The notes under the pieces: model-generated | Told to the model about the DNA's origin: nothing | Seen by the model: only the letters and a program-made list of their open reading frames with translations | Databases searched by the model: none | Program-made: the position numbers and the translations under genes | From: Bacteroidales bacterium | GTDB taxonomy: Bacteria; Bacteroidota; Bacteroidia; Bacteroidales; Muribaculaceae | Direction: 5' to 3' | DNA length: 57,986 bases | Assembly: GCA_020859845.1 (NCBI GenBank) | Contig: JAJBVL010000108.1 | Coordinates: forward strand, 1 to 57,986 | In this document: in pieces, positions 48,199 to 57,986 of the stretch | How positions within the stretch are numbered: position 1 is the stretch's first letter | Layout: every line of letters starts with the position of its first letter

Positions 48199-50187
48199 TT
48201 AGCGCGCAGCGCTTTGGTAGCACTCTATGTTTTGCTGGAGCCAGTCGGCAAACTTTGCCACGTTTTCGTCGTAATAATAGGGTTGGCCCATCACGTCGCC
48301 TTGGTTGTTGAGCACCACGTAGTAAGGCTGACTATTGGCAGCAAACTTATGACGCTGCAGGTAGCTCCACTTGTCGCCCACCGTCGAGAGTCTCACCTTG
48401 CGGCCATTCTCTTCCACCGTGATGGGCTGGGCGAGCTTTTGCTTGTCATCGACCATCAGCTCTATCAGCACGAAGTTGGCTTCGATCATCTCCTTAATCT
48501 CTGGAGCGTCAAACACGGCTCCCTCCATCTTGCGGCAGTTGACGCATCCAAATCCCGAGAAGTCCATCAGCACAGGTCGACCATGCTCGGCGGCGTAGCG
48601 CATACCCTCCTCGTAGTCGGAAAACTGCTTAAACTGATTGCCTTCGTAGAGGTTGAAGTCTTGTGTAAATAGCGGAGGCACGAAGGCGCTGACGCTTTTC
48701 AATGGTGCACCCCAAAGGCCAGGGATAAGATATACCGAGAAACTCAGCGATACCAACGCCATGAAGAAACGAGCCACGCCCACAAACTTCAGACGCGAGT
48801 CATGCGAGAACTCAATCTTGCCCAGCAGGTAGAAGCCCAGCAGTGCAAAGATGATAATCCAGAGCGACACGAACACCTCGCGGTCGAGGATACCCCAGCC
48901 GTAGGCAAGGTCGGCCACGGAGAGAAATTTGAGCGAGAGAGCCAATTCCAAAAAGCCTAACACCACTTTAACTGAGTTGAGCCAACCACCTGAGCGAGGC
49001 ATCTCCTTGAGCCACGAGGGGAAGATGGCAAAGAGAGTAAAGGGGATGGCAAGGGCCAGTGCAAAGGCCCCCATGCCGATAGCAGGGCCGGCGATGTTGC
49101 CCACAGAGGCTGCTTCTACCAAGAGAGTGCCGATGATAGGGCCCGTACAAGAGAAGCTCACCAGCACCAGCGTAAAGGCCATAAAAAAGATTGATATGAT
49201 ACCGGTGGTGCGCTCAGCCTTGCTGTCAACGCCATTGCTCCACTTCGAAGGGAGCTTGATATCGAAAGCGCCGAAGAATGAGATGGCGAATACCAATAGC
49301 AAGAGGAAGAAGAGCAGATTAAACACTGCGTTGGTGGCCAAGTCGTTGAGCTTGCTCGCTCCGAAGATGAGAGTGATGGCGAGGCCGAGCGCCAGATAGA
49401 TGACGATGATACCCCCTCCATATATTAAGGCATCGCCAATGGAGCGACTACGCGAATTGCCTTTCTTCAAGAAGAAGCTCACCGTCAGTGGTATCATAGG
49501 CCATACGCATGGGGTCAGCAACGCCACCAAGCCGCCGATGAAGCCCCATATAAAAATGTACCACCACGACGACTGGGCAATGTTTTGATTGTTGGTTTCA
49601 TCCGTGTCGGGAAACACTGCTGGAGCCCACCAACTGCTCTCGCCTCCCAATCCGTCAGGTATAGTCTCTGTTATCTTTGGGGCAGGGGAGTCCTCTTTGT
49701 CAGAAGGAGAGGCCGCCGTGGCATGGCTTGAAAATTCAAAGGCGCTCTTCGCTGGGGCAATGCAGCTTTCGTCGTTGCATCCTTGATATGATATGTCGCC
49801 GGCAATCTTGAAAGCACCGTCGGGGCTCGTCACGCGGAAGCGCTGCTTCAGCTCCACATCCTCGCTCCAGTAGGCCAGCTTGAGGTGAAACACCATGTCG
49901 ACCTCCTCCTTGGGGGCCACGCTGGGCTCCAATTCCCCCTCCAGCTCCACGCCCTCGAGGGTGGTGTAGGTCACCGAGGTAGGTCGTGGGCCTCCATCGG
50001 GGAGCTTAAGGCCATAGAGGTGCCATCCAGGCTCTATCGAAGCGTAGAATGTGATGGCTCCCGAGCCATCTTGAGGTTGTATGAGGCGCGTAGTCCATCC
50101 CACAGGCTCAATTATCTGAGCTTGAGCCAGCAGAGCGGTCGTAAATAGCAAGAGTAGGGCGCATAAGGCCCGAGCGGTTCTCTTCAT
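48199..50187 (-). CDS. dsbD: Thiol:disulfide interchange protein DsbD
   Basis: 662 residues. Signal peptide with the core ALCALLLLFTTALLAQA, an N-terminal beta-sandwich domain (VELKQRFRVTSPDG), a membrane domain of about eight helices including the paired-Cys segments GGLVALLTPCVWPMIPLTV and LVSFSCTGPIIGTLL, and a C-terminal thioredoxin domain with CVNC near residues 547-550 (FSGFGCVNCRKMEG). It carries reducing power from cytoplasmic thioredoxin to the periplasm. It heads the run dsbD-mazG-lipoprotein-topB-Cys-rich peptide. Confidence 0.95.
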   Translation of the reverse strand: MKRTARALCALLLLFTTALLAQAQIIEPVGWTTRLIQPQDGSGAITFYASIEPGWHLYGLKLPDGGPRPTSVTYTTLEGVELEGELEPSVAPKEEVDMVFHLKLAYWSEDVELKQRFRVTSPDGAFKIAGDISYQGCNDESCIAPAKSAFEFSSHATAASPSDKEDSPAPKITETIPDGLGGESSWWAPAVFPDTDETNNQNIAQSSWWYIFIWGFIGGLVALLTPCVWPMIPLTVSFFLKKGNSRSRSIGDALIYGGGIIVIYLALGLAITLIFGASKLNDLATNAVFNLLFFLLLLVFAISFFGAFDIKLPSKWSNGVDSKAERTTGIISIFFMAFTLVLVSFSCTGPIIGTLLVEAASVGNIAGPAIGMGAFALALAIPFTLFAIFPSWLKEMPRSGGWLNSVKVVLGFLELALSLKFLSVADLAYGWGILDREVFVSLWIIIFALLGFYLLGKIEFSHDSRLKFVGVARFFMALVSLSFSVYLIPGLWGAPLKSVSAFVPPLFTQDFNLYEGNQFKQFSDYEEGMRYAAEHGRPVLMDFSGFGCVNCRKMEGAVFDAPEIKEMIEANFVLIELMVDDKQKLAQPITVEENGRKVRLSTVGDKWSYLQRHKFAANSQPYYVVLNNQGDVMGQPYYYDENVAKFADWLQQNIECYQSAAR

Positions 50188-50230
50188 GTAGGGAGTAGTA
50201 GTGATGTTGGGGTTTTATCGTTTTGACTTG

Positions 50231-50238
50231 CAAAGTTA
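50231..50238 (-). promoter_or_regulatory. Putative -7 element for dsbD
   Basis: Minus strand TAACTTTG, 43 bases before the ATG at 50187. No TTTG at N20. Confidence 0.5.
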
Positions 50239-50333
50239 CACAAAAAAAGTAAATCTTCCACTCTCCGCGGCCAATTACAGGGGTGTTTGTCCGATTCTTG
50301 AGGCTAAAGGGTGTCAGAATGAAATAATTTTGT

Positions 50334-50341
50334 TAACTTTG
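50334..50341 (+). promoter_or_regulatory. Putative -7 element for the GT5-like gene
   Basis: TAACTTTG, 42 bases before the ATG at 50384; no clear -33 partner. Confidence 0.5.
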
Positions 50342-50383
50342 CAGTGGATTTTATCCTCCTCAATCACCACCAACCACTCATCA

Positions 50384-51205
50384 ATGAAGCAAAAAGTTTT
50401 ATACATTTCGCAGGAAATCTCACCTTACTTGTCAGAATCTCCCATGGCGGTTCAGGGACGCGACCTTCCCCAAGCCGTTCAAGAAAAAGGTTTTGAGGTG
50501 AGAACCTTCATGCCCAAGTACGGTTCGATCAACGAGCGCCGCAATCAACTCCACGAGGTGATAAGGCTCTCGGGGAAGAATATCATCATTGATGACACCG
50601 ATCATCCATTGATAATCAAGGTAGCCACATTGCAGCCCACACGCATGCAAGTCTACTTTATCGACAACGACGACTTCTTCCACAAGTTTCCCTGCAAGGG
50701 CCTGGAGACCGACACTGACCCTGCCCAAAACGACGAGCGAATGATGTTTTTCACCCGCGGCGTTGTGGAGACCGTTAAGAAGCTGCGCTGGGAGCCTGCC
50801 ATCATCAATTGTATGGGCTGGATTACGGCCATGCATCCCGCAGCTCTGCGCACTCTCTACCACGAAGACCCAGCCTTCGCTTCGGCACGCATTGTCTATG
50901 CCTTGCGTCCTGAGGACTTCGAGGGCACTCTCGACCCGCGCTTCCAGGAGAAGCTTCGCCAGTGGGATGTGGCCCCCGAGACTTTAAAGGCACTCGGCAC
51001 CGAGCCTGTCACCGCCGCCGCTCTCCATCGCTTTGCCATGGACTATGCCGACGCCATCGTGCTCGACGCTCCGGGAGTAGATCCCGAGCTTATAGCCTAC
51101 GCCGAGGCCACGGGCAAGCCCTTCCTGCGCCCTGACTATGATGGCGACGTCGTGCAGCAGTATGCCGACTTCTACCATTCGCTCCTTGGAGCCGACTGCG
51201 CTTAA
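50384..51205 (+). CDS. Glycogen/starch synthase-like protein, GT5 N-domain only
   Basis: 273 residues from the ATG at 50384; a longer frame to 50201 has no support and would precede the promoter box. The fold of the GT5 catalytic N-domain is visible (VLYISQEISPYLSES, FEVRTFMPKYGSINERR, QVYFIDNDDFF, PAIINCMGWITAMHP). The family's donor-binding K-T-G-G-L motif is replaced by SESPMAVQ, and the whole C-terminal Rossmann domain is absent (GT5 enzymes are usually near 480-500 residues). It is therefore probably not a working synthase. Similar short proteins next to DUF4270 lipoproteins occur in Bacteroidota. Its role is unknown. Confidence 0.82.
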   Translation: MKQKVLYISQEISPYLSESPMAVQGRDLPQAVQEKGFEVRTFMPKYGSINERRNQLHEVIRLSGKNIIIDDTDHPLIIKVATLQPTRMQVYFIDNDDFFHKFPCKGLETDTDPAQNDERMMFFTRGVVETVKKLRWEPAIINCMGWITAMHPAALRTLYHEDPAFASARIVYALRPEDFEGTLDPRFQEKLRQWDVAPETLKALGTEPVTAAALHRFAMDYADAIVLDAPGVDPELIAYAEATGKPFLRPDYDGDVVQQYADFYHSLLGADCA

Positions 51206-51275
51206 GCGCATACCCGGCTTTCCCTTCCACTCATTCAGCACATAGTTCTCTGAATTTTTCCCCCTGAATACGACA

Positions 51276-52640
51276 GTGAATCGTTTCCCATTCTTCCTGC
51301 TTATCAGCCTTGTAGTAGCGAGCCTTATCGCTGCTTGCGATGACAATGTCTCCACCGTCGGCTCGAGCCTTATCACCGACAAAGTGGAGATTATCATCGA
51401 CTCTTCATTTGTTGCCACTGGCAAGACAGTCCCCAACACAGCGGTGCAGAGCCGCACGTTGACCCAGCTCCTGGGATGTTTCCACGCCGAGGAGTATGGC
51501 GAACTGCGCTCCAATTTCGTCACCCAGTTTATGCCCACCATCTCCATCGACACCACAGGCATGGCCGAGGAGCGTATCGACTCCATCAAGCTGCTGATGT
51601 TTTTGGACACTGGCGACTTTACTGGCGACTCTCTTGTGCCGATGGGCTTAACCGTCTATCCACTCACCAAGGCCTTGCCTTCGCCTATCTATAGCGACTT
51701 TGATCCTGAGGGCTACTACGACCCCACCCCCATTGCCACTCAGATGTATACCGCGAATGCTCTGTATAGCGACTCTGCTGCTGGCCTCACATATCGTCCT
51801 ATCTACGTAGACCTCCCACGCCAGATGGCCATCGACTTCTACCAGAAGTATATCGATAGCCCTTCTACTTTTGCTTCTCCTCAGGAGTTTGTCGAGTGGT
51901 TCCCTGGTTTCTACGTGAAGAGCACATTTGGCTCAGGCCTCGTGGTCAACATCACTGAGTCGCGTATGCAGTTCTACTATCGGCAGCACGACGTAGTGGA
52001 GACCGACTCCACCTCCACCGACACCTTGTATAATAAAGTGCAAATCCTCTGCACAGTGTCGCCCGAGGTGATTACCAACAACGACATCCACTACACCATG
52101 AGCGAGAGCCTCAAGGCTCGCGCAGATGCCGGCGAAGTGCTTATCGTGGCTCCTCTGGGCTACAATGCCGAGATACAACTGCCACTTGAGAGTCTGCTGC
52201 AGACCTTCCGCAATCAGGGAGGCAACCTGTCGGTGCTCAACACCCTCACCATCACCCTTCCCGTGGAGGAGATCCCCAACGACTATGATATCGACCCGCC
52301 CACACAGGTGCTTCTCGTCCTCTCCAAAGACAAAGAAGCCTTCTTTGAGGACAGCGAGATATCTGACAATATCACCTCGTTTGTGGCAGAGTATAGCTCC
52401 ACATCCAAGGCCTACATCCTGTCGTCGATGCGGTCCTACTTCTTGGAGATGCTTGACCGCGACTCGATAACCGAGGAAGATTATACCTTCACCCTCTTGC
52501 CCGTCACCGTTGATGTAGAGTCGTCGACAAGCTACATTACCACAGTCTCTCCTTACGTAGAAACCCCCGCGATGGCAAAAATCTTGGTAGATGAAGCAAA
52601 AATTACGCTCACATTTAGCAAGAATACCGTAAATTATTAG
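51276..52640 (+). CDS. DUF4270-family lipoprotein
   Basis: 454 residues from a GTG start at 51276. Lipoprotein signal FLLISLVVASLIAAC followed by DDN, mildly acidic, so surface display is possible. The family features are the opening STVGSSLITDKVEIIIDSSF, LLGCFHAEEYGELRSNFVTQ and many beta strands (IDSIKLLMFLDTGDFTGDSL). It is restricted to Bacteroidota and its function is unknown. It lies 70 bases after the GT5-like gene and probably shares its transcript. A hairpin lies after its stop. Confidence 0.88.
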   Translation: MNRFPFFLLISLVVASLIAACDDNVSTVGSSLITDKVEIIIDSSFVATGKTVPNTAVQSRTLTQLLGCFHAEEYGELRSNFVTQFMPTISIDTTGMAEERIDSIKLLMFLDTGDFTGDSLVPMGLTVYPLTKALPSPIYSDFDPEGYYDPTPIATQMYTANALYSDSAAGLTYRPIYVDLPRQMAIDFYQKYIDSPSTFASPQEFVEWFPGFYVKSTFGSGLVVNITESRMQFYYRQHDVVETDSTSTDTLYNKVQILCTVSPEVITNNDIHYTMSESLKARADAGEVLIVAPLGYNAEIQLPLESLLQTFRNQGGNLSVLNTLTITLPVEEIPNDYDIDPPTQVLLVLSKDKEAFFEDSEISDNITSFVAEYSSTSKAYILSSMRSYFLEMLDRDSITEEDYTFTLLPVTVDVESSTSYITTVSPYVETPAMAKILVDEAKITLTFSKNTVNY

Positions 52641-52648
52641 TAACTTTG
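52641..52648 (+). promoter_or_regulatory. Putative -7 element for tRNA-Thr
   Basis: TAACTTTG just after the DUF4270 stop, 65 bases before the tRNA. A TTTA lies 23 bases upstream; the -33 is weak. Confidence 0.45.
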
Positions 52649-52652
52649 CAGC

Positions 52653-52692
52653 CGTAAAAACGCAGGGGCCTTCCACGTCCCGCGTTTTTACG
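52653..52692 (+). terminator. Perfect hairpin between DUF4270 and tRNA-Thr
   Basis: CGTAAAAACGC (52653-52663) with GCGTTTTTACG (52682-52692), 11 bp perfect, extended by GGG/CCC. It could end the DUF4270 transcript; the T-run is inside the stem. Confidence 0.55.
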
Positions 52693-52712
52693 ACCACCAT
52701 AACAAAGACCAA

Positions 52713-52785
52713 GCCGCAATAGCTCAGTCGGTAGAGCATTTCATTCGTAACGAAAAGGTCGTGGGTTCGAGTCCCACTCGCGGCT
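52713..52785 (+). tRNA. tRNA-Thr (CGT), CCA not encoded
   Basis: Cloverleaf with acceptor GCCGCAA/TCGCGGC (one A-C mismatch), D arm GCTC-AGTCGGTA-GAGC, anticodon loop TTCGTAA (anticodon CGT), T arm GTGGG-TTCGAGT-CCCAC and discriminator T. The anticodon stem also closes with an A-C mismatch. TCTCAT follows, so CCA must be added after transcription. Confidence 0.92.
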
Positions 52786-52794
52786 CTCATTTTA

Positions 52795-52828
52795 CAAGGC
52801 AACCCTCCGATATCGGAGGGTTGACTTG
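52795..52828 (+). terminator. Hairpin after tRNA-Thr
   Basis: AACCCTCCGAT/ATCGGAGGGTT is a perfect 22-base palindrome at 52801-52822, extended by CAAG/CTTG. TTGTTG follows. The rest of the gap to 53012 holds only the brxA promoter box. Confidence 0.6.
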
Positions 52829-52977
52829 TTGTTGGGGGAGAATTTGTCCCATATTTGCTCCACTGAATATTTTGGATAAAAAGATTGGACCCTTAGACAC
52901 CACCCCCATGGTCGTTTTTTTTGCGGGGATGCAGGATTTTTGCGGGGCAAAAGGATGGAAGGATGATGGAAAATCGT

Positions 52978-52985
52978 TAACTTTG
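52978..52985 (+). promoter_or_regulatory. Putative -7 element for the BREX operon
   Basis: TAACTTTG, 27 bases before the brxA ATG. The -33 position has no TTTG, so other factors may be needed for expression. Confidence 0.5.
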
Positions 52986-53012
52986 TCATCTTACAAATCA
53001 GGATACCTATAA

Positions 53013-53639
53013 ATGCAGGCAAAAAGTCCCTATACAGCAGCCATTACTGGAGGCGGTCTCCTTTTTGAGGAGACTAATGTCATGTTGCCCTTGCTCCTTT
53101 CGCCCGACCGTACAACTTTGGTGAAAGATGAAGTGTCAAATAATCGATTGTTGCGCATCAACGCAGAAAAATCACGTTATAGAGCGGTGGCTGAGATTGG
53201 TCGTCGCTTCGATGCTATGCCTTCTTCTTTTTGGCAGGATTACCTTTTGATGAACGAAGAAGAACGGCGAGTGGCTCTTTTGCTTGTCATGCTAAAAACC
53301 TATAAGATACTTTTCGACTTTCACATCAATGTCACGCTGCGCCGATGGAACTCTATTTCCAAAAGCGTCTGCATTGATGACCTGATGATGGAGTTCAATG
53401 AAATATCGGCTCGTGATGAATTTGTAGATTCATGGAGCGACAACACCAAAGACCGTGTGGCCAGTGCTTACCTTTCTGTTCTGCGAAAGGTGGGAATGCT
53501 TGACCGCGCCAACAGGCTGTCTGCGATTAAATCCACCAATATGGATTACTATCTTACCCATGGTGAAGCTTGGTTCCTGGAAGCCTGTCTGCTGCAACCT
53601 TACCAAATAGAGCAAATAAGAAAGGAGGCAATGTCATGA
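53013..53639 (+). CDS. brxA: BREX protein BrxA (DUF1819)
   Basis: 208 residues, the usual BrxA length. The opening YTAAITGGGLLFEETNVMLP is the family hallmark, followed by NRLLRINAEKSRYRAVAEIG and the helical LLLVMLKTYKILFDFHINV. BrxA is a small DNA-binding protein of BREX phage-defence systems. The gene is the first of the operon, starting 228 bases after tRNA-Thr. Its stop overlaps the start of brxB (ATGTCATGA), so translation is coupled. Confidence 0.93.
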   Translation: MQAKSPYTAAITGGGLLFEETNVMLPLLLSPDRTTLVKDEVSNNRLLRINAEKSRYRAVAEIGRRFDAMPSSFWQDYLLMNEEERRVALLLVMLKTYKILFDFHINVTLRRWNSISKSVCIDDLMMEFNEISARDEFVDSWSDNTKDRVASAYLSVLRKVGMLDRANRLSAIKSTNMDYYLTHGEAWFLEACLLQPYQIEQIRKEAMS

Positions 53640-54250
53640 CAGTCCAAGCACTATACACCAAACTCTGCGACCCTCGCTTTCAACAGCCTGAAAACGGCGA
53701 CCTGTTCTATAACTTCTTTATCTATCAATATCCGGCAGATAAGGAATACGAGATGCGTCGCCAGATAGAAGAGTTCAAGGCAAACCTGATACGTCCTACC
53801 AGCTATGTTGATGTGCTTACCCTGAACCTCTTTGATGAGTTCTGCACATATCTAGATGGTCAGCACTTCCTGAAATATCCGTCTATGCTGCAATATCTGC
53901 TTGAGCAGGAACAAAGTCAGCCAGATAAGGCCGACAAGGTACTATCTACCCTCCAACGCCATGCCCATAGCGAGAAGTTCCTTCGCTTCTTGCATGACCG
54001 CATTATGCATCACATCACTCTTGAGGACGAGTATCATCGCCCGTATGTTTTCTTCTATGGCATCGGCTCCATGTTCCCTTATCTGAGGGTCAATGAGTTG
54101 CTGGCAGCCTATGAGGATTATAATGATACCGAGAAATATCGCATCCTTGTGTTCTATCCTGGTCATCGGGAGGAAAACTCGTTCCGCCTGTTCAATACAT
54201 TAAGCGATCATCACACCTACCGAGCTACTCTATTAATTAACGATGAATAA
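53636..54250 (+). CDS. brxB: BREX protein BrxB (DUF1788)
   Basis: 204 residues from the ATG at 53636, which overlaps the brxA stop by four bases. Family marks include GDLFYNFFIYQYPADKEYEM, FHKF-like basic helices (SEKFLRFLHDRIMHHI), the YVFFYGIGSMFPYLRVNELL block and the closing ILVFYPGHREENSFRLFNTL. BrxB is an essential BREX component of unclear activity, thought to be part of the modification and defence complex. It overlaps brxC by eight bases (ATGAATAA). Confidence 0.94.
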   Translation: MTVQALYTKLCDPRFQQPENGDLFYNFFIYQYPADKEYEMRRQIEEFKANLIRPTSYVDVLTLNLFDEFCTYLDGQHFLKYPSMLQYLLEQEQSQPDKADKVLSTLQRHAHSEKFLRFLHDRIMHHITLEDEYHRPYVFFYGIGSMFPYLRVNELLAAYEDYNDTEKYRILVFYPGHREENSFRLFNTLSDHHTYRATLLINDE

Positions 54251-57200
54251 AATGCTACTCCGCGACCTCTACCTGAAAGAAATCACACGTCCAGTAAATC
54301 CTGCTGTTTCGGCTACTAAGTTTGACCCCAAGACCATTGAAACGGAAATCAGTGAATATGTCTTCACCGATGAGATTCTTAATGGCCTCTTCCGCATACT
54401 TGATGCCATCAAGAACAATGCGCCATACGACCATGTGGGCATCTGGATTGACGGCTATTATGGCAGCGGTAAGTCTCATTTCTTGAAGTTTCTGGACTAC
54501 TGCATCACACCCTCCACCCGTGAGGACGCCTTAAGGCGGCTGATGGAAACGGTGGAAGCTATCGACCCGATGGATGACGAGCACAACTTACAGTTTGACC
54601 GTGGGCAGTTGCGCAGCATTGCCACCTGGCTTCAGAAAGCGACCATAGATACTTGCATATTCAATCTGGAGACTTCATACAACGCTCAGACCGACAAAAA
54701 GAAAGCCTTTCTTCAGGTATTTTGGGATGAGTTCAATGGCAAACGTGGACTCAACAAGTTCAATCTTACGCTGGCGCAACTCCTAGAAAAGCCTCTGATG
54801 GAGCGTGGCTTGCTTGATGCATTCAAGGAACGCATCGCCGACATGGGCGGTAATTGGGATGATCCCAACGAAGCTGCCGACATCGTGGACCAAAGCCTCG
54901 AAACGGTGGTAGAGATAGCCAAGGAACTGAATCCGCAGTTCGATGCCCAAGCACTCTACAACCATATCGACAAGCGTGACTATGCCGTCTCTATTGAGCG
55001 ATTCGGTATGGAACTTGCTTCTTACTTGGATGACAAAGGTGAAGACTACCGCCTTATTCTACTGGCTGATGAGGTGAGCCAGTTCATCAACAAGGAGCGC
55101 GACCGCTACCTCAACCTTCAGGAAATCATCACCAAACTCTCCGAGGCTTGCCACAACCGCGTGTGGGTGGCTTGCACTGCCCAGCAAGATCTGTCGGAGA
55201 TTATGGATGACTGCAATATCAACGACGAGAAGGACAAGGAGGGCAAGATCAAAGGCCGCTTCGAGGTGAAGGTGTCGCTCAAAGGCACCCAGCCTGAGGT
55301 TATCACCCAAAAGCGTATCCTTGAAAAGAAAGAAGAAGTAAAGCCCATACTGGCTGAGATGTATGATAAGCAGAAGGCAGCCTTTGACCTCCAGTTCAAG
55401 TTGCCGACAGCCTATACTGCCTACGAGAGCCAAAAGGCATTCGTGGACTTCTATCCTTTTGTGCCCTATCAGTTCAAACTCATCATGCAGGTGTTCGACT
55501 CCTTCCTGGCACTGGGTTATGTAGCCAAGGAGGTGAAAGGTAACGAACGCAGCATCATCAAGGTCATCCATGCCACGGCAAAGCGCGAGGCTGGGACTGA
55601 GTTGGGGCAGTTCGTGTCGTTCGACAAACTGTACAACAGCATGTTTGAGGAGGGCCTTCAGGCTCGCGGACAGAAAGCAGTGGAGAACGCCCTCACGGTG
55701 GCAGACAAATATCCTGCCGACCGCGTGCTGGCTCGACGTGTAGCCAACGTCCTCTTCATGATATGCAACATATCCAAGAACAACCAGCTCCAGTTCCCTG
55801 CCAACCTGGACAACATCACCACTTTACTCGTCACCGATATGTCGCGCCCGCGCCTTGCTATAAAGAATGAGGTGGAAAAGGTGGTTGACTATCTGTGCGA
55901 CAACAATATCATTCGCCGAGAACAGGGTAAGAACGGTATGCCCGACTACTACTCTTTCTACAGTGAGGAAGAGATGAAAGTGGCCGAACTTATCAAGAGC
56001 CAGAATGTGGACAACAACCAGCAGGCAGAAACCTTGAAGGACATCTTTGGCAAGTATTTCAAGACCCTGCGCAACAAGGAGACCTATCGCACCCGCACCT
56101 TTGCCGTGGGCGAACTCATAAAGGGACGCACCTATTTGAGCAATTCACCCGATGTTGTGGTGGAGTTTGCCATGGACTGCGACTACGACACTCCCGAATT
56201 GCTGGCACTGCAGAATCAGACCAATCGGCTTGTGTTCTACGTAGGCCCACAGTTCATGCAGAACCAGCGGCTGCGCAACCAATTTTATTGGTGTTGCAAG
56301 GTGAACAGTTATCTGGCCACACCTGTCAGCAGTGAAGAAAATGCACAGACGCGCAAAGAGTTTGAAAAACGTGCCGGCCAGATATTTACAGATATTGTGG
56401 AGAAGGAGTGTCATAAGATTCTCGACACGTGCCCCATTATTTCTGGCGTGTCGGTCATCACCGACGATACCGAGCTTAATGGCCGTCGTGCTGCCGACCG
56501 TTTCTCCGCTGCTATGCAGAAGCATCTTGCCAGCATCTATACGAAGGCAGCCTTGGTGGATAACCCCACTGTACCGCGCAATACCGAGGCTCTGCGCAAA
56601 GCTATTCAGCGCAATATAGAACCAAGAGAATACTCAGAACTGGGGGCTGCCCTCAGCGATGCAGAAAAGGAAGTGGAAATCTATTTGGCCAAGCAGTTCC
56701 AAGAGGTTAATCTCAGCGACGTTGTGGCCAAGTTCAGCAAAGCGCCTTATGGTTGGGATGCCATCTGCACACTTTATGTGGTGAATGAACTAGTACGCCG
56801 CCACAAGCGTGACTACAGCTATGCCAACAACCCCAATGTGGATACCGCCATGGTGGCCAGCAGGATTGTGAGCGAAACCAACAAGTTCACCATTCGCGAA
56901 GCCAAAGCAATCAGCACGGAACTCATCAATCGTTTCCTCGATGCTTGGAAATCCGTATTTGGCCTGGCGGCAACCTTCTCAACCAATGACAGCACCCAAC
57001 TCTTCCGCATGACACGCGAGAAGCAGAGTGGTGGTGAACGGTCGTTGGAGAATATTGTGGAACGCTATCGCCGTCTGGCCGACGACAATGCGCAGTATTC
57101 GTTCATACGTCCTTTGCGCGACATGGTGCACCTCATGCAAGGCTGGCAAGCAGAGCGCGACCCCATGGCCTACTTCAATCGCATCATTGAGGAAAGTCCG

Positions 57201-57818
57201 AAGGCCAAGCAACTCTTCGACCAGTGCAAGGAAGTCGTTGCCTTCCTGCAAGACCAGATAAGCAACTACCGCGACACACTCGCCTTCGTGCGTCAGAACC
57301 ACGACAACTTCCAGTATCTGCCCGAGGAAATGGCAGAAGCGGTTGCCAACCTGCAAGCCATCGAGACCGCTGTATGGCCTATCAAAATGCGCGACTATAT
57401 CAAATTGCGCAATATCGTTGGTGGTGCCATTGACCAGCAGCGGGGTGAGTTGCGTCAGCGTATCACCGAAGCATATACCAACACGTATGCCCAATTGGAG
57501 CAAGGTTGCCAGCAGGAAGGTGTTCCTACCACTGTCCTCACACCTCTCGATGTCACCATCAGCCTGAAGACCAAGAGCGAGAGCATACCAGTGCTTCAGA
57601 ACAATCTTTTTACCGACCAGTTCTTTGCAGAGCAGTCGGCTAAGATATTGGCGGCCAAGCCCCAAAAAGAAAATCATGCCACCTCCTGTATTGCCCTCAA
57701 CACCCGCACCATACTGCCTCTGAAAACGGAGGAAGAGGTTGACAAATACCTCGCTCGTCTGAAGAAACAGATGATGGCGGAGATAGAGAAAGGTAACAGC
57801 GTGAAGATTATCAAATAG
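54243..57818 (+). CDS. brxC: BREX ATPase BrxC
   Basis: 1191 residues, full length (BrxC is about 1200). Walker A GYYGSGKS at 71-78 within GIWIDGYYGSGKSHFLKFLD; Walker B LILLADEVSQFI near 270-280. Then KVSLKGTQPEVITQKRILEK, FYPFVPYQFKLIMQVFDSFL and a long helical C-terminal half (EAKAISTELINRFLDAWKSV) ending in AEIEKGNSVKIIK. BrxC is the P-loop ATPase required for both BREX methylation-based self-marking and phage restriction. It starts inside the end of brxB. The next expected gene, pglX, does not begin within the remaining 168 bases. Confidence 0.96.
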   Translation: MNKMLLRDLYLKEITRPVNPAVSATKFDPKTIETEISEYVFTDEILNGLFRILDAIKNNAPYDHVGIWIDGYYGSGKSHFLKFLDYCITPSTREDALRRLMETVEAIDPMDDEHNLQFDRGQLRSIATWLQKATIDTCIFNLETSYNAQTDKKKAFLQVFWDEFNGKRGLNKFNLTLAQLLEKPLMERGLLDAFKERIADMGGNWDDPNEAADIVDQSLETVVEIAKELNPQFDAQALYNHIDKRDYAVSIERFGMELASYLDDKGEDYRLILLADEVSQFINKERDRYLNLQEIITKLSEACHNRVWVACTAQQDLSEIMDDCNINDEKDKEGKIKGRFEVKVSLKGTQPEVITQKRILEKKEEVKPILAEMYDKQKAAFDLQFKLPTAYTAYESQKAFVDFYPFVPYQFKLIMQVFDSFLALGYVAKEVKGNERSIIKVIHATAKREAGTELGQFVSFDKLYNSMFEEGLQARGQKAVENALTVADKYPADRVLARRVANVLFMICNISKNNQLQFPANLDNITTLLVTDMSRPRLAIKNEVEKVVDYLCDNNIIRREQGKNGMPDYYSFYSEEEMKVAELIKSQNVDNNQQAETLKDIFGKYFKTLRNKETYRTRTFAVGELIKGRTYLSNSPDVVVEFAMDCDYDTPELLALQNQTNRLVFYVGPQFMQNQRLRNQFYWCCKVNSYLATPVSSEENAQTRKEFEKRAGQIFTDIVEKECHKILDTCPIISGVSVITDDTELNGRRAADRFSAAMQKHLASIYTKAALVDNPTVPRNTEALRKAIQRNIEPREYSELGAALSDAEKEVEIYLAKQFQEVNLSDVVAKFSKAPYGWDAICTLYVVNELVRRHKRDYSYANNPNVDTAMVASRIVSETNKFTIREAKAISTELINRFLDAWKSVFGLAATFSTNDSTQLFRMTREKQSGGERSLENIVERYRRLADDNAQYSFIRPLRDMVHLMQGWQAERDPMAYFNRIIEESPKAKQLFDQCKEVVAFLQDQISNYRDTLAFVRQNHDNFQYLPEEMAEAVANLQAIETAVWPIKMRDYIKLRNIVGGAIDQQRGELRQRITEAYTNTYAQLEQGCQQEGVPTTVLTPLDVTISLKTKSESIPVLQNNLFTDQFFAEQSAKILAAKPQKENHATSCIALNTRTILPLKTEEEVDKYLARLKKQMMAEIEKGNSVKIIK

Positions 57819-57986
57819 TGACGATGGAAAAAATAAGCCCAAAAATCAACCTTATTTTTACTTTCGACCGCAACGCATTAAAATACAAATGGTTAAACTG
57901 GTAATTTAAGAAATAGTATGTCGGATAACAACGTAAGCATTCGGTAATGCCCGTATTGCGTACTTCGCCGAAGTAGCCCGAACTTC
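57819..57986 (+). other. Gap after brxC: micro-frame and two hairpins
   Basis: A 26-codon frame from the ATG at 57825 (MEKISPKINLIFTFDRN, ending in KWLNW) lies six bases after the brxC stop; I cannot tell if it is translated. Two short inverted repeats follow: GCATT-CGGT-AATGC at 57937-57950 and TACTTCG-C-CGAAGTA at 57961-57975. No start of pglX is seen before the edge. Confidence 0.5.

Follow-up and report, generated by a model that had tools for sequence, protein, structure and literature searches.

Type 1 BREX phage-defense systems comprise six core genes (PMC9240713). By analogy with the gene requirements given in PMC9122589, PglX together with BrxB, BrxC and PglZ, and in some systems BrxA (the coli BrxA was reported to be dispensable), would mark host DNA by methylating the N6-adenine within a 6-bp non-palindromic motif; with all of the genes present, the replication of unmarked phage DNA would be blocked. 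A BrxL-HKD variant, with a lysine-to-arginine change, was described for 1030 of the 2913 BrxL-bearing type 1 taxa (PMC12839542).

Two of the closest relatives of the locus studied here, from Bacteroides mediterraneensis (L016) and from G214 (L163), a genome of the same family, both have pglX followed by a gene for a SIR2-domain protein; the genome studied here has what looks like a SIR2-type fragment, and its pglX was not found. The order in G214 is brxA-brxB-brxC-Schlafen-like gene-pglX-SIR2 protein-pglZ-brxL. B. mediterraneensis carries a PARIS pair (AriA, AriB) between brxC and pglX (L016:14845-16421). Identities to our genes are, for B. mediterraneensis and G214 respectively, 64% and 59% for brxA, 70% and 68% for brxB, and 63% and 54% for brxC. 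Other relatives, such as L166, have different genes between pglX and pglZ. In the closest relative of our brxA (76%; L015/L170, G237:C181), the order is pglZ-brxL-brxA-brxB-brxC-pglX, so gene order is not fixed even in close relatives. At this last locus the brxC match comes in two pieces, one of which has an internal TGA. Judged by eye from the gene starts, a BREX locus of an uncultured Prevotellaceae has a tandem pair of pglX-like genes (L021:15617-20618). At L172:5382-5828 (G363:C7) there is a 148-aa ORF that, past its first residues, matches the PglX C-terminus; we take those first residues to resemble a YafQ-type toxin, and the ORF is an apparent rearrangement remnant.

The window that we analyzed, 57,986 bases long, makes up all of contig C23. 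The assembly totals 2.92 Mb in 112 contigs and has a completeness rating of 97.87%. The features of the locus are collected in Table 1.

Table 1. Features of the proposed BREX locus on contigs C23 (the window) and C53
Feature	Location	Strand	Size	Evidence and remarks
tRNA-Thr (anticodon CGT)	52713..52786	+		ARAGORN; left flank of the BREX genes
brxA	53013..53639	+	208 aa	PF08849 85.9 bits (curated cut-off 23); 12 PADLOC BrxA models, best 66.1 bits
brxB	53636..54250	+	204 aa	PF08747 83.7 bits (curated cut-off 26.8); PADLOC BrxB 116.5 bits
brxC	54243..57818, start more likely 54252	+	1191 aa from 54243	NCBIfam NF033441 788.5 bits (curated cut-off 400)
Possible next frame (MSDNN)	57918..57932	+	five codons	putative, read from the sequence; cut by the insertion sequence
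IS66-like insertion-sequence end	57933..57986	+		repeated element with a terminal inverted repeat of 27 bp (GTAAGCATTCGGTAATGCCCGTATTGC); the contig breaks off within it
Partial protein, C-terminal part	end of contig C53, upstream of pglZ		297 aa	no Pfam, NCBIfam or PADLOC family match
pglZ	end of contig C53		871 aa	TIGR02687 277.1 bits (cut-off 270.35)
brxL	contig C53		690 aa	TIGR02688 510.8 bits (cut-off 329.3); PADLOC BrxL 842.8 bits

Near its right end the window has three intact ORFs, adjacent and on the same strand, in the brxA-brxB-brxC order of type 1 BREX. PADLOC calls agree on the identity of all three products, and no NCBIfam model matched brxA or brxB. This confirms the original prediction of three complete genes, and the peptide signatures quoted in it (YTAAITGGGLL, YGIGSMFPYL and GYYGSGKS, the last being the BrxC Walker A motif at residue 71) are all present in the translations. 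It had also been stated that the genes overlap in their start and stop codons. This holds for brxA and brxB, which overlap by 4 bases. The overlap of brxB and brxC, 8 bases, exists only with a brxC start at 54243; since the closest full-length relatives (L016, L017, L163 and L103) align to brxC from residue 4, which corresponds to ATG 54252, the start is more likely at this position, just past the brxB stop and without any overlap.

The distal core genes were found on contig C53. PglZ scored over the BREX-1 type A cut-off, and the adjoining brxL lies 2 bases from a converging gene that we read by eye, as for all lld names here, as lldG. With these two genes in the same genome and with matching gene models for brxA, brxB and brxC, the reading of the window genes as the front portion of a type 1 BREX operon is supported. 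BrxL also matched TIGR02653 with 523.1 bits, which is under the cut-off of that model (628.25). Its C-terminus matches PF16565 (phospholipase-D-like) and contains the HxR(x4)D motif as HDRRILTD at 637; compared by sequence, we saw no difference in these traits from the type 1 BREX with BrxL-HKD described in PMC12839542. The assembly contains one BrxB match, one BrxC match and three matches to PglZ models, of which the one on C53 is BREX-type. The other two, on C88 and C106, were ruled out as BREX parts by eye from the neighboring genes; the C106 protein matched no PADLOC model.

Upstream of pglZ, C53 ends within a partial protein of 297 aa. This fragment aligns to residues 651-940 of the 971-aa SIR2-domain protein of G214, which occupies the same position before pglZ, with 23% identity (E=4e-9 in a single comparison), and by this sequence match it looks like the C-terminal part of a SIR2-type accessory protein. 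It had no matches in viral contigs or plasmids. The main text of PMC12839542 does not contain the word SIR2, and a search of one literature collection found no titles or abstracts naming BREX, SIR2 and PglX together; an association of BREX with SIR2 may be little described. Nothing else in the assembly matches the terminal sequence of C53, and no contig joins C23 to C53.

According to the original prediction, the rest of the operon should follow just past the right edge of the window, which does not hold in that form. Since the window is a whole contig, nothing can be read beyond that edge, and what comes next after brxC is an insertion sequence, which the prediction had not mentioned. One end of a repeated element, inserted 114 bases 3' of the brxC stop, occupies the final 54 bases of the window. 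The assembly contains 11 copies of a 25-base core of this end; 10 lie no more than about 60 bases from a contig end, and one (C4:3943) is internal. The copies fall into two kinds, which have the outer 27 bases in common and then diverge, as the opposite ends of a single element do. Exact 8-bp target duplications were found in 3 of 30 left/right end pairs (C14/C10, C56/C75 and C4/C80), for a chance expectation of about 0.0005 (30 / 4^8). Terminal inverted repeats starting with GTAA and 8-bp target duplications, which we take to be the marks of IS66-type insertion sequences, are both present here, and they point to an element of this type; neither its interior nor a transposase was seen in the contigs read. 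The mate of the C23 element end (the end beside GTTGTTAT) is absent among the 11 end copies, which indicates that the neighboring contig is missing from the assembly. The terminal repeat had no match among viral contigs, and a 188-base piece of C4 with an insertion-sequence remnant had no plasmid match. An insertion-sequence end is also carried by the short contig C39 (L026, 4,359 bases), of which the sequence looks unlike the genome by eye; this contig is possibly foreign or a contaminant.

Directly before the element, a frame starting at 57918 appears to be interrupted after five codons. Because MSDNN is unlike the PglX N-termini of close relatives (MDTN, MDTS, MNTN, MNTT or METT), the interrupted frame may belong to an accessory gene rather than to pglX.

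A pglX gene was not found in the assembly with either the NF033452 model or an alignment of PglX from five relatives. The model gave two matches, of 44.1 and 28.9 bits against a cut-off of 500, which we read as other methylases. BrxC scored over its cut-off in 10 of 397 genomes of the family, our own included, and the PglX alignment matched all nine others with E-values of 1.7e-15 or better, one of its five rows having been supplied by one of these nine (G237). The weak match among them was that of G305 (55.3 bits). Three of the BrxC proteins, from G374, G305 and G230, are distant, with 24-27% identity to ours over the aligned part. In eight of the nine genomes pglX lies on the same contig as brxC, directly after it or one gene on; in the ninth, G044, it lies on another contig.

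We also considered a pglX-less BREX as a family trait, as brxC (L103, contig C256) is followed directly by pglZ and brxL in G044. This was rejected, since G044 has PglX on contig C216 (L169); moreover, in the remaining genomes whose BrxC exceeds the cut-off, pglX follows brxC directly or with one gene in between. Downstream of brxL, G044 has genes that we read by eye as a kinase, a vWA protein and a probable PP2C phosphatase.

Two ORFs of our own genome were set aside as pglX candidates. A 1108-aa methylase on C43, which adjoins an SNF2/PLD helicase, scored 766.6 bits with a type IIG restriction-methylase model as against 41.2 (PADLOC) and 45.5 (NCBIfam) with PglX models. A 517-aa ORF on C65 was read by eye from its neighborhood as a type I methylase. 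The latter contig (L038:1791-6739) carries two converging hsdS-like ORFs with similar starts, adjoining a possible recombinase and the probable type I methylase (all by eye), and is possibly a phase-variable type I system.

Taken together, the locus resembles type 1 BREX in the order of brxA, brxB and brxC, in its sequence families, in a PglZ of the type A class and in the presence of BrxL in the genome. It differs in that pglX was not found, in that the genes are spread over two contigs and in that an insertion-sequence end comes directly after brxC. The reading that we favor, with a probability of roughly 0.8, is that brxABC are the promoter-proximal part of an incompletely assembled type 1 BREX whose BrxL is of the HKD type, with pglX in the gap. 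The proposed order would run from brxABC through an IS66-like insertion in the gene just after brxC to pglX, a SIR2-type gene, pglZ and brxL, and the operon would end with brxL tail to tail with lldG. On this reading the assembly broke at the repeated insertion sequence and did not retain the stretch beyond it, so that the middle is missing. In terms of GC content, the sequence 3' of brxC (32%) and the end fragment of C53 (37%) are both low relative to the window upstream of the tRNA (53%); within C53 the values are uneven (pglZ 48%, brxL 57%). As the alignment finds pglX in all nine other genomes and GC is low at both edges of the gap, a pglX in the gap that separates C23 from C53 is the most economical and the most likely reading. 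We infer the physical linkage of the two contigs, the place of pglX in the gap and any activity of the system. The locus is a known kind of system, incomplete by assembly and possibly interrupted by an insertion, which could reduce or prevent the expression of the genes beyond it.

A decayed system would account for some of the same observations. Transposition, or a deletion next to the insertion sequence, would then have taken out pglX along with the first part of the accessory gene, and brxABC and pglZ-brxL would be remnants that lack a methyltransferase. This would fit the element end immediately 3' of brxC, the failure of an alignment that hits all nine other genomes to find pglX here, and the accessory protein, of which just the C-terminal portion is visible where its contig ends. 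However, the far side of the insertion and its target duplication are absent from the end copies as well, which a missing contig explains without any loss, and the five brx, pglZ and brxL genes have open frames that span almost the full length of their models. We therefore consider decay unlikely. We also consider it unlikely that pglX was truly lost by a transposon-associated deletion with intact brxABC, pglZ and HKD-type brxL retained, in a system that is either on its way out or restricting without self-marking through accessory effectors.

A different question is how an incompletely assembled type 1 BREX came to lie beside the tRNA-Thr gene, where the original prediction had seen an inserted defense island. 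That brxA is next to this gene is correct, the distance from the tRNA 3' end being 226 bases by our recount rather than 228. The system is not at the same place in all relatives: none of the genus's other 33 genomes gave a BrxC match, though many are incomplete (14 of the 34 genus genomes are at least 90% complete), so BREX is not a fixed gene of the genus. Its sporadic presence is consistent with horizontal gain. The BREX part also has a GC content of 49.6%, under the range of 50.6-55.9% across 4.8-kb stretches elsewhere in the window. BrxC had no match among viral contigs and matched 288 of 72,556 plasmid records, every one with less than 60% identity. A tRNA-Thr-targeted integrative island should carry at its far side a direct repeat of the 3' end of this tRNA, but the 12,865-base piece of C53 contains no tRNA and no match of at least 13 bases to 52713-52830; the longest, of 12 bases, comes from the 5' part of the tRNA. 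Should C53 not be the neighboring contig, the far end could lie in another place. Among 14 pieces of our own genome that were compared (187,407 bases), one matched 14 bases of the 3' end of the tRNA, on C106 (L039:10567), though inside a long ORF; the C106 piece had no called tRNA and nothing of BREX was noticed on it, and we read this match as chance. Neither did we notice an integrase by eye in the ORFs of window positions 50000-57986 and of the C53 piece.

The tRNA-Thr site itself varies in the genus. The pair of a DUF4270 gene and tRNA-Thr is conserved in 24 of the 30 loci scanned, our own included. Of the 29 other loci, 12 from congeners were read over longer stretches, and 9 of them had a called tRNA. 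The genes beyond the tRNA, on the side away from DUF4270, differ between most of the 12 loci, with no BREX there; L100 and L102, both without a called tRNA, share genes at that side. None of the ORFs of at least 90 aa from the 12 loci hit window positions 53013-57818. The lldF gene was present in 4 of the 34 genus genomes, our own included. No clean empty site could be defined. Variation of the far side in congeners without BREX speaks against a dedicated island, and the site appears to be a boundary where rearrangements recur, not an established attachment site. We thus consider carriage of the BREX genes by a tRNA-Thr-targeted island very unlikely, leaving sporadic presence as the part of the island claim that holds.

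In practical terms, the incompletely assembled type 1 BREX serves as a warning that a repeat within a defense operon can split an assembly, so that the methyltransferase then looks absent. If pglX were truly gone, the locus would offer a direct test of whether BREX effectors persist without self-marking. For the genus, our findings add a sporadically occurring type 1 BREX whose BrxL is of the HKD type; none of the other 33 genomes searched gave a BrxC match. If the insertion blocks distal expression or pglX is lost, the system would be inactive; if it is complete, host DNA would be marked and unmarked phage DNA would be excluded.
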